From Planctomycetota bacterium (GTDB lineage: Bacteria > Planctomycetota > Phycisphaerae > WQYP01), in contig JAJYZF010000013.1 of the NCBI GenBank assembly GCA_021800165.1, forward strand, positions 1-64,000: 64,000 nt of DNA, given 5' to 3'. Under the pieces are notes generated by a model that was given only the letters and a program-made list of their open reading frames with translations, was not told the DNA's origin and ran no database searches. Below are positions 60,236 through 64,000 of this stretch, in pieces; the stretch's first letter is position 1; every line of letters starts with the position of its first letter. Position numbers and translations under genes: made by a program.

Positions 60236-60450
60236 CTTCCGTCTTGCGCCCCCGGACAATAACTGTCTGCTGGCGCTGGTAATATGAAACCTGACCGGTT
60301 CAGCCTCGGTGGCGGCACGAAAAGAAACTTTGAGCAAGGAAGATCATAAAAGTCCATGTTTTCAGCCGTGTCGAAGTGGCAACTGGCCTTTTCAAAATTA
60401 CACTGCGCCCCTTGCCCACCAGCCTTCCCCTTGGTACGCTTGCGGCGTCA

Positions 60451-61110
60451 ATGTTCCGACCTGAGGCACGTATGGTACAACTGATTTCGCCGGTCTTGCC
60501 CCTGCTCGCGGGCTTACTGGCCCTTCTCTTTATTATGCGGCGTTCACAGCTCAAGGGTTGGGTGGGTGAAATGGCCATTCGCCTTGCCTGTCGAACCTTG
60601 GATAATACGATCTACCATTGCATTCACAACGTCACACTGCCGACGGCCAATGGTGGCACCACGCAAATCGACCATCTGATTGTGTCCCGGTTCGGCATTC
60701 TTGTGGTGGAAACCAAAAACTACCGTGGAGCCATCTATGCCAGCCAGTATGACCGAAACTGGACGCAGGTCCTTGGCCGATGCAAGCATCAATTCCAAAA
60801 TCCTCTGCGACAGAATTATGGCCACACCATGGAACTGACTAACACTCTGGGCCTGCCGCGGGAAGCCATGAAACCCATCGTGATATTCATCGGCTCCGCC
60901 CGGATTAAGACCCAAAACAAACTTCCCGACAATGTTCTAACTCACGGCCTGCTGACCTACGTCAAATCACACCAAGAGCCGGTACTGGCCGAAGATGACG
61001 TGGCCCGCGCCCTGCGGATTATTCGGGAAAAACGGCTGGCACCCGGGTACAAAACACACCGTACCCATGTCAGAAACGTCCGCATCAGCCACGCCCGAAG
61101 GCACCGGTAA
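60451..61110 (+). CDS. NERD-domain (nuclease-related) membrane-anchored protein
   Basis: KGWVGEMAIRLA...TTQIDHLIVSRFGILVVETKNYRGAIY. Confidence 0.85.
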   Translation: MFRPEARMVQLISPVLPLLAGLLALLFIMRRSQLKGWVGEMAIRLACRTLDNTIYHCIHNVTLPTANGGTTQIDHLIVSRFGILVVETKNYRGAIYASQYDRNWTQVLGRCKHQFQNPLRQNYGHTMELTNTLGLPREAMKPIVIFIGSARIKTQNKLPDNVLTHGLLTYVKSHQEPVLAEDDVARALRIIREKRLAPGYKTHRTHVRNVRISHARRHR

Positions 61111-61370
61111 TACTCTGGGGCCAGGTCTTCATACTCGGCCTCACCCGATATAATCAGCCGCATGGCGGTAAACGCACAGGTGCTGGGTCGCGATTGCGTA
61201 TAGAGGCTCATGAGCAGTGTGCCGATCATCACCACATAAAATCATGCCTCTACTCCCCGCGGACTGTGGCTGATCATCTGCTCAAAGTTGGCGTACACCT
61301 TCAGCCGGCGGAAAAACAATTCAATGGTCCACCCCTGCAGGTAGACCAGCCTGATGAAATGGGCGGTCAG
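61090..61370 (-). pseudogene. IS4-family transposase C-terminal remnant with internal stop
   Basis: LTAHFIRLVYLQGWTIELFFRRLKVYANFEQMISHSPRGVEA*FYVVMIGTLLMSLYTQ, one in-frame TGA. Confidence 0.75.
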
Positions 61371-61443
61371 CCCCGGCAAACGCCCCAACCCATCCGTCAT
61401 CCCACCATTCCCCCAAAATCCGGTTCCGTGGCATAATACCGCC

Positions 61444-62373
61444 ATGGCCAAACGCACGTTTAGTAAGTTCAGATCCCGCTGGTGGGCGTTTTGCAAAATC
61501 GAACGCCACCTTAAAACCGGCCGGTGCTGCAATACCCAGTCCCTCGCCGCCGATTTGGAAGTCGATGCCCGCACCGTTCGCCGATATCTTGAATTCATGC
61601 GTGATGATCTGGGCGCTCCTATCATCTTTGATCGCGCCTCCCAAAGCTATAAATTTTCCCATACCACCTGGTCCATGCCCAATGTGCATTTAAGCCTGGA
61701 AGAAATCCAATCCCTGGCCGTGGCGGTGAAGTCCATCACTCCCACCGTACCCGCCCCGTTTGCCCGGCCGCTGGAGAGCCTGCTGGCCAAGTTGCTTGAT
61801 GCCCTGCCCGAAGATGACCGCACGGAAATTCGCCGGGCCCAAAAGCAAATTGTATTTCTGCCCGTGCCGGTATCATCAAAGGGGTCCGCCTGGCTCGGCC
61901 CGCTGCTGGAGGCCATCCGCGGCGAAATGACCGTGGATATGGTTTATTTCGCCTTGTCCCGCGATCAGGAAACCCAGCGGCGTTTCGATCCCTACCATCT
62001 GCGCTACTTCATGGGTACGTGGTATGTTGTCGGCTACGATCATTTAACAAAACTTTGGCCCGTATTCAACCTGGCCCGCATTCGCAAGCTTACCGTCACG
62101 GAAGACTTTTACCGCCCGCGGTCCTTTGACCCGGATACTTTTTTCAAAAACAGCTTCGGCATCAGCGTGGGTGGTACACCTCAAAAAGTGTCCATCAAAC
62201 TCACCGGATGGAATGCCAAAACCGCCGGCGAAAGAATCTGGCCGCCCGGCTTCGTCTACAAAACCGTTGGCCCGGAAGAAGGAATCTTAACCGGCCTCAT
62301 TGCCAACTCCGCCGACCTGGATCTATGGATTGCCTCCTGCCAGGGCGACGCGGAAATCATCGCCCAGCCATAG
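61444..62373 (+). CDS. WYL-domain helix-turn-helix regulator
   Basis: LAADLEVDARTVRRYLEFMRDDLGAPI; RFDPYHLRYFMGTWYVVGYD. Confidence 0.85.
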   Translation: MAKRTFSKFRSRWWAFCKIERHLKTGRCCNTQSLAADLEVDARTVRRYLEFMRDDLGAPIIFDRASQSYKFSHTTWSMPNVHLSLEEIQSLAVAVKSITPTVPAPFARPLESLLAKLLDALPEDDRTEIRRAQKQIVFLPVPVSSKGSAWLGPLLEAIRGEMTVDMVYFALSRDQETQRRFDPYHLRYFMGTWYVVGYDHLTKLWPVFNLARIRKLTVTEDFYRPRSFDPDTFFKNSFGISVGGTPQKVSIKLTGWNAKTAGERIWPPGFVYKTVGPEEGILTGLIANSADLDLWIASCQGDAEIIAQP

Positions 62374-62423
62374 CCGCGGCCTCCCTTCGTGTCCGGAGTT
62401 TAATCCGTCCTCACCCCCGTTGA

Positions 62424-62518
62424 GGCATGGATGCCGAAATCCCGATGTCACAGGAGTCGCGCATCGGGAAGGCATGGATGCCGAAATCCTCGATGCTGGA
62501 GGACCAGCGTATCGGGAT
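62424..62518 (+). repeat. tandem pair of dispersed hairpin elements, copies D1 and D2
   Basis: D1 TCCCGATG...CATCGGGA; D2 inner CTGG-agga-CCAG; each with GGCATGGATGCCGAAAT prefix. Confidence 0.75.
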
Positions 62519-62686
62519 CTCCCAACTCCTAACTCCCAAATCCTAACTCCTGCGGCCGCAGCCGTCGTCGCTCCCGCTTTTGGCCGCAGCCCCCCGGACA
62601 ATAACTGTCCGCCCTGCCCGGTAATCATAAACAGGTCGGTTGTTCAGACGCTCTGAACCCCACGTGCTTTTGCATGGCAATACCCC

Positions 62687-64000
62687 ATGGCCACTTTTAT
62701 CTACCAATGCGACCACTGCCGGCAATTTACCGAATCGGCCTCACCTCCAAGCCCGATCGGTTGCCCGGAAAGCATGTTTCATTGGTGGTATAAGCTCGCC
62801 CCGGCCTCGCCGGCGGTATCCGCGTATTGCCGCCGCCTGCTTCCATCCAAGCCAGACCTGTCCCCGGATGAACTTGAATCCTGTCTTCCGCCGCTGGCGC
62901 AAAACCTCGCCGCACTCAAGGCCAAACGAGATGCATGTCAGCAGACTGCCGAGCGTACGCCTGGTCTGCTCCTGGCGTTCACGTCCGGGATCCTTGATCC
63001 TGACCAACAATCTTACGCGTGTTCCCAATGGCTTGCGGCCAAGCTCGATCCGCACGGCGACCACCCTTGCGGCCCGCTATTGCTAAAACAGTTCCTGCAA
63101 ACGCTCTCGACCAGCGTCCACCCCCCCCATCCCGCAACGAAACAGTTTTATCCGCCCGCACTCGGCAAAATCGACTGCTCCCAGGCCCAGATCACCGCCC
63201 CGACCAACTCACCCGATCGTTGTTCCGCCATTATGATCACCTTGCCGCATTGGGGTAATATCTGCATCGCCAACACGGTCAATGCCTACGGCTGCGATGA
63301 AACTCCCAAATGTGTAAATCTTTTCAACGCACAACCGCCAACCCCAAATCTACACCGTCTGCTGTTGTACCTTACGCCGGAGGGTACCGCCTTGGAAAGC
63401 CCGAAAAATCTTCAGGCTCCGTATTTCCTTATTTCATACCGCAAACACATCAGCCAATGGCTCAAGGCCTGTCTTCATGCTGTGCCCGCCACTACCGCTG
63501 TTACCGCCTCTCTGCGTCAACTCACGTCGGTCATCTCGGTCATAACCGAGGGACGTTTTCCATGGGAGTACGAATATATGCAAAGTGTTGAACAACTGAT
63601 CCGGCAAAACCCCGCCATCATCGCCAGTGTTAACGATCTTAAACAGGCTGTCACCAGCCTTGGCCTCTCCTGTTTCAACCGGCACTGGGATGCCGTCCAG
63701 CGCGAGTTGGCCGGCACCGGCATCATCATCGGCGAAATCACCCTCCACAACCGTTTAAATATTGCGTATTGGCCGGTCCGCATTGCGCCTGCCTGCCCCT
63801 TAAGAAAACCAGGTACCCTCGTTCGACCCAAAATATGGCGCAGACCCCTCGGCGAGGAACTGTGTATCAGCCTCACGTTACCGAAACACCTCGGCGATGC
63901 CGCAGCCCGAATCATCAACGCCGACTCTAAGGATGGCTGGCTGAACGCCACCGAGCTTCCCTACGAATTTTCAAACGAAGCGTTGACCCGCCTTGTCCAC
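62687..64000 (+). CDS. PD-(D/E)XK (PDDEXK_4-like) family protein, truncated by window edge
   Basis: continuous 438-codon frame from ATG 62687; SQWLAAKLDPHGDHPCGPLLLKQFLQTL, LLLYLTPEGTALESP...FLISYRKHISQWLKACL; not in supplied ORF list. Confidence 0.7.
   Translation, partial: MATFIYQCDHCRQFTESASPPSPIGCPESMFHWWYKLAPASPAVSAYCRRLLPSKPDLSPDELESCLPPLAQNLAALKAKRDACQQTAERTPGLLLAFTSGILDPDQQSYACSQWLAAKLDPHGDHPCGPLLLKQFLQTLSTSVHPPHPATKQFYPPALGKIDCSQAQITAPTNSPDRCSAIMITLPHWGNICIANTVNAYGCDETPKCVNLFNAQPPTPNLHRLLLYLTPEGTALESPKNLQAPYFLISYRKHISQWLKACLHAVPATTAVTASLRQLTSVISVITEGRFPWEYEYMQSVEQLIRQNPAIIASVNDLKQAVTSLGLSCFNRHWDAVQRELAGTGIIIGEITLHNRLNIAYWPVRIAPACPLRKPGTLVRPKIWRRPLGEELCISLTLPKHLGDAAARIINADSKDGWLNATELPYEFSNEALTRLVH

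Follow-up and report, generated by a model that had tools for sequence, protein, structure and literature searches.

INTRODUCTION

A PD-(D/E)XK domain without its catalytic residues is a kind of protein that is already known. Active-site-less domains of this type that presumably still bind nucleic acid have been described, one of them fused to an active domain (PMC1189080), and inactivated Argonautes have been predicted to serve as structural subunits with neighboring nucleases (PMC2743648). Among WYL-domain transcription factors, BrxR binds inverted repeats with a 5-bp spacer in promoters (PMC9122601), and SiwR binds a 19-bp imperfect palindrome in a promoter (PMC10693628); the targets of both are promoters of defense or stress genes (PMC9122601, PMC10693628).

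Here we describe a predicted inactivated nuclease of the PDDEXK_4 (PF14281)/PDC-S26 family, encoded in a gene cluster of an uncultured member of the Planctomycetota. PDC-S26 is listed in PADLOC as a single-gene phage-defense candidate, and a literature search by the names PDC-S26 and PDDEXK_4 returned no match. The window, meaning the whole stretch of DNA that was analyzed, comprises 64,000 bases (bases 1-64000 of the 68,362-base contig C126, from a 4.37-Mb genome in 228 contigs); positions beyond its end are given as contig positions.

RESULTS

A diverged PDDEXK_4/PDC-S26 homologue at the window edge

The first-pass annotation had reported a reading frame starting at ATG 62687 and staying open for 438 codons to the window end, and we obtained exactly the translation that it quoted. 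The frame was indeed open at the edge, and its real length exceeds what the window shows by 32 codons: on the extended contig the stop is reached at contig 64099, giving a protein of 470 aa. Other open reading frames overlapping the gene encode at most 148 aa. The family pattern recognized in the annotation is present as well (LDPHGDH, YLTPEG, and ISYRKHISQWL). Pfam PF14281 matched residues 108-267 with an E value of 3.1e-4 and 21.2 bits, against a cut-off of 22.3 bits, and a PF14281 search of the contig scored 21 bits at the gene and 24.6 bits when neighboring stretches were added. The PADLOC PDC-S26 profile matched residues 113-463, most of the protein's length, with an E value of 8.4e-17. 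On these matches, the protein is a diverged PDDEXK_4 (PF14281)/PDC-S26 homologue and, judging by its aligned active site (see below), not an active enzyme.

The AlphaFold model of the protein is of moderate confidence (mean pLDDT 59.5) and places a helix at residues 129-142, a strand at 168-170, two strands at 181-186 and 190-196, a helix at 205-215, and a strand at 223-230. An alpha-beta-beta-beta-alpha-beta core order fits this model, for which a PDB fold search gave no significant match. The model of an intact relative (L023) was better (mean pLDDT 73.6), and many of its best fold matches were PD-(D/E)XK proteins (MspJI, EndoMS/NucS, Bax1, BamHI), none of them significant. A sequence search of the PDB gave no convincing relative, and no close relatives of the inactivated protein were found in GTDB contigs, IMG/VR, phages, or plasmids. 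The relatives that carry names are Planctomycetota MAGs, including one Phycisphaerales.

Table 1. Features of the locus, in window coordinates unless marked otherwise
Feature	Position	Strand	Basis or remark
NERD-side copy of palindrome 1, one mismatch	60253..60269		Upstream of NERD gene
NERD-domain (nuclease-related) protein gene, same cluster	60376..61110	+	PF08378, E 7.7e-29
WYL-domain transcription factor gene, candidate regulator	61354..62373	+	PF13280, E 2.5e-16
Palindrome 1, CGGACAATAACTGTCCG, operator-like	62595..62611		About 90 bp before start codon of inactivated gene
Palindrome 2, GTTCAGA-CGC-TCTGAAC (GTTCAGACGCTCTGAAC)	62642..62658		Upstream of inactivated gene
Predicted inactivated PDDEXK_4/PDC-S26 gene	62687..64000, onward to contig 64099	+	PF14281 and PDC-S26 profile matches
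Putative zinc ribbon, residues 1-37, ligands C8, C11, C26, H32	62687..62797	+	Similarity to double-ribbon ORF
PD-(D/E)XK nuclease-like core, residues 108-267	63008..63487	+	PF14281 match; AlphaFold helix-strand order
A181, catalytic Asp in intact relatives	63227..63229	+	Alignment
A195-N196-T197, Glu-Asn-Lys in relatives	63269..63277	+	Alignment

Loss of the active site

At the expected ENK site, the annotation had read a change of E/K to A/T, and this was borne out: the core reads CSAIMITLPHWGNICIANTVNAYGCDE, compared with, for example, GQLDLLISLPGWGDIVIENKINAHEQ in relatives. A gap-free alignment sets CSAIMITLPHWGNICIANTVNAYGC of the inactivated protein against QLDLLISLPGWGDIVIENKINAHEQ of the G021 homologue. 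The catalytic replacements are D161>A, E175>A, and K177>T, and H90, R92, E152, Q183, Q186, Y190, and the NINQALQQY stretch have been lost as well. E-N-K is kept in all PDDEXK_4 relatives of the class with a readable core, the catalytic D, as aligned, in nearly all of them, and the D...E-x-K pattern in most PF14281 loci of our phylum sample. When invariant positions were defined from five intact family members, 80 columns resulted, and the inactivated protein had lost 20 of the 25 polar ones compared with 22 of the 55 others (Fisher p 0.0014). This concentration of losses on invariant polar residues suggests that the fold of the protein has been kept.

The annotation had named an intact D-ExK elsewhere in the protein as the finding that would speak against a dead nuclease. 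Since a motif scan of residues 1-470 found no [D/E/Q]-x-K in the core (residues 108-267) and the catalytic positions are replaced, we saw no such site; strands 181-186 and 190-196 of the core contain neither an acidic residue nor a lysine. We conclude that the protein, as aligned, has lost every catalytic residue, and both the proposed catalytic inactivity and the homology to PDDEXK_4/PDC-S26 nucleases are upheld.

The reading frame appears to be maintained

The gene contains no stop or frameshift over 470 codons at 27-29% identity to an intact paralogue on the same contig. When neutral decay of that paralogue to 30% identity was simulated, a mean of 14.8 stops accumulated and none of the 300 runs stayed open; frames were never open at 70% identity or below. 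The closest relative (G024:C242:3-323), from another genus, shows 48% identity across the last 106 residues at the C terminus, and the missing N-terminal part of this orthologue was not found in the G024 assembly. Over 104 aligned codons, the two genes differ at 44, 30, and 57 first, second, and third codon positions, respectively, corresponding to an NG86 dN/dS of ~0.26, a value that is rough because dS is near 1.7 and that covers the C-terminal part, outside the active-site and ribbon region, the G024 contig beginning inside the gene. Judged from these sequence comparisons, the gene is not a decaying pseudogene and its frame is under selection, and we consider it very likely that the protein is both dead and maintained.

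An N-terminal zinc ribbon

The CDHC motif noted at the N terminus is present, although not as an isolated motif: it forms part of C8-x2-C11-x14-C26-x5-H32, in the stretch YQCDHC...GCPESMFHWWYKL, with all four ligands kept. This stretch resembles a double zinc-ribbon ORF at contig 66759-66989 (34-35% identity, E values of 0.0014 and 1e-4), a small stand-alone ORF downstream of the gene, with whose ribbon the C-x2-C ... C-x5-H ligands align as a predicted metal site. A protein of a 636-kb uncultured phage has a ligand spacing equal to that of the inactivated protein's ribbon. As a side observation, a double zinc ribbon 38% identical to the one beside the intact nuclease is found at L067:1501-1713, in an uncultured phage of 636 kb. 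A zinc ribbon with a nuclease in G019:C75 was rejected as unrelated, the nuclease keeping ENK and the ribbon match lying in another frame with stops; weak ribbon matches in G009 (FmdB-like) and G022 were likewise set aside as different things.

An intact paralogue nearby

The intact paralogue lies 1.2 kb downstream of the inactivated gene; its start was set at contig 65275 after comparing it with its relatives. With E values of 2.2e-33 for PF14281 and 9.2e-70 for PDC-S26 and a core of GRLDIVI...IENK, it looks like a normal family member and is seemingly a working copy. The G024 genome carries the dead type and an intact-core copy on one contig, the latter ~5.4 kb downstream, and in both genomes with the dead type an intact-core copy is found within about 6 kb. 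In the assembly, the G024 intact-core gene (L012:5646-6976) has one in-frame TAG toward its C terminus. A PF14281 search of the phylum sample revealed no second active/dead tandem.

Palindromes upstream of the genes

A 68-bp block containing both palindromes precedes the inactivated gene and, at 84% identity, an FxLYD-like gene (start contig 64681), which heads the unit of the intact nuclease and the stand-alone ribbon. Allowing one mismatch at most, palindrome 2 has only two copies in the genome, the one in Table 1 and another at contig 64624-64640, upstream of the unit with the intact paralogue. At the same threshold, palindrome 1 has four: before the inactivated gene, the FxLYD-like gene (G000:C126:64577-64593), the NERD gene, and a gene on contig C218 (G000:C218:1869-1885), a relative of which comes immediately after the gene of the dead type in G024.

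Palindrome 1 (GGACAATAACTGTCC) was present in 16 of the 28 family genomes, a read-backwards control giving few matches, and on contigs with multiple copies these all lie on one strand. Among copies for which a following ORF was found, the median distance to the start codon is 92 bp, and the tagged starts are often accompanied by a Shine-Dalgarno-like sequence; this spacing of ~90 bp together with the Shine-Dalgarno-like sequence points to a promoter-like placement of palindrome 1. The arrays of palindrome 1 (L129-L147), same-strand and defense-like in content, are likely a regulon or a cassette array.

Two further stretches of the window were noted. A 106-bp intergenic repeat upstream of the inactivated gene (62383-62488) has 67 matches in the genome, sometimes in tandem, and was set aside as a dispersed genomic repeat. 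Past the NERD-side palindrome, the sequence at about 60355-60400 looks like the beginning of the MKIHVF gene found in other arrays, in a broken frame, and is probably a remnant.

A WYL gene and defense-type neighbors

The cluster combines an adjacent WYL gene with inverted repeats in its promoter regions. WYL genes 53-58% identical to this one stand beside the arrays of six other loci (L130, L133, L136, L138, L141, and L143), and a divergent relative (27%) occurs in G027. The order in several other arrays is WYL, palindrome, FxLYD, AAA; here the inactivated nuclease is placed between WYL and FxLYD. Genes that recur, either tagged or adjacent to tagged ones, encode an AAA ATPase (IetA-like by PADLOC), a DEDDh exonuclease, a phosphatase-like MKIHVF protein, FxLYD-like proteins, a zinc-ribbon TM2 protein, and metallophosphoesterases. 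The context is of a defense type, with NERD here and DEDDh, GmrSD, Mrr, and AAA genes in the loci of relatives. Two 271-aa proteins (L098:1957-2772 and L012:639-1454) match only the N-terminal part of the array AAA ATPase.

Promoter inverted repeats are the binding sites of BrxR and SiwR, so control of the palindrome by the WYL protein is a natural inference, and this protein may regulate the palindrome-tagged genes. We think it likely that the inactivated gene is co-regulated within the WYL-linked cluster, and we infer for the cluster a role in defense against viruses.

DISCUSSION

The explanation toward which we lean, with modest confidence, is that the protein is a dead pseudo-nuclease, co-regulated with an active paralogue in a WYL-linked, defense-like island and serving as a binding or regulatory partner. 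A PDDEXK_4/PDC-S26 pseudo-nuclease would have kept its fold while carrying an N-terminal C-C-C-H zinc ribbon. Separate transcription units of the Planctomycetota cluster would share a palindromic operator-like element, and the protein would probably be made together with the intact paralogue. Most likely it would still bind nucleic acid, the active paralogue, or both, and it may hold back, target, or license the intact nuclease. Three features that lay out of sight of the annotation argue for a role linked with the neighboring nuclease: the active paralogue itself, the operator-like palindromes common to both units, and the stand-alone zinc ribbon. That the inactivated protein is specifically the partner of the intact nuclease seems to us an evenly balanced proposition. 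The earlier suggestion of a nuclease repurposed as a sensor or binder is compatible with the protein, which may have such a role.

A stand-alone sensor or competitor, in which the dead domain and the ribbon bind DNA or RNA (phage or damaged DNA, for example) and signal or block without touching the paralogue, strikes us as unlikely. Dead PD-(D/E)XK domains that presumably still bind nucleic acid have been described (PMC1189080), the zinc ligands are intact, and most of the residues that were kept look structural; yet the control block of the gene also precedes the unit with the intact paralogue, both dead-type genomes have an intact-core copy close by, and many polar residues that could contact a substrate have been lost too. 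Still less probable, in our estimate, is that the palindromes are boundaries of mobile gene cassettes instead of operators and the gene a mere passenger of the array. Variable gene content, same-strand arrays, and contigs that often end at arrays would suit this idea, whereas the position of the element, mostly ~90 bp before a start codon and often with a Shine-Dalgarno-like sequence, does not.

We regard it as highly improbable that the gene is a decaying pseudogene open by chance, in spite of its strong divergence from all relatives and the loss of most polar family signatures: simulated decay never left a frame open at even 70% identity, the partial G024 orthologue indicates purifying selection, and the zinc ligands and operator-like block are in place. 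Just as improbable is continued enzyme activity through an active site that is rearranged or depends on zinc. PD-(D/E)XK enzymes are able to relocate catalytic residues, and D204 and E205 would lie, in the model, at the start of the helix after the core strands, but those strands lack acidic residues and lysine, and no [DEQ]xK occurs in the core.

Returning to a pseudo-nuclease that acts with its paralogue, a bolder reading, which we offer tentatively, is that the active/dead PDDEXK_4 pair and the zinc ribbon might form a Planctomycetota immune module of a new, two-part kind, with the dead paralogue as its specificity or safety subunit. The ribbon is fused to the dead copy and separate beside the active one, and one WYL-read palindromic operator might serve an array of defense-like genes. 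Control of dangerous nucleases by pseudo-enzymes that accompany active paralogues is a recurring theme; if true here, it would extend to a family so far listed only as a phage-defense candidate, in a phylum that has been little studied. The common palindrome also provides a handle: from sequence alone it picks out genes that are probably switched as a group, among them some without a known domain.

Compared with PDDEXK_4/PDC-S26 nucleases, the protein is similar over most of its length and shares LDPxGxHxCG, YLTxxG, and ISYxxHIxxWL, but all of its catalytic residues are replaced, NINQALQQY is gone, and an N-terminal zinc ribbon has been added. As with BrxR (PMC9122601) and SiwR (PMC10693628), a WYL gene is accompanied by inverted repeats in the promoters of its own cluster; unlike in those systems, many array units carry the palindrome, and WYL binding is predicted only. 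As in COG1395/PAB2104 (PMC1189080), a dead nuclease domain is paired with an active one, although there the domains are combined with an HTH, whereas here two genes of another family are involved and a zinc ribbon takes the place of the HTH. Inactivated prokaryotic Argonautes (PMC2743648) offer an analogy in how the pair might work, a dead nuclease-fold protein beside an active nuclease in a defense setting, but they have the unrelated PIWI fold, and the protein described here is without guide-binding domains. Set against these systems, the combination of a dead PDDEXK_4 domain with a fused zinc ribbon, an intact paralogue, and a common palindromic block looks new as far as our searches reach.
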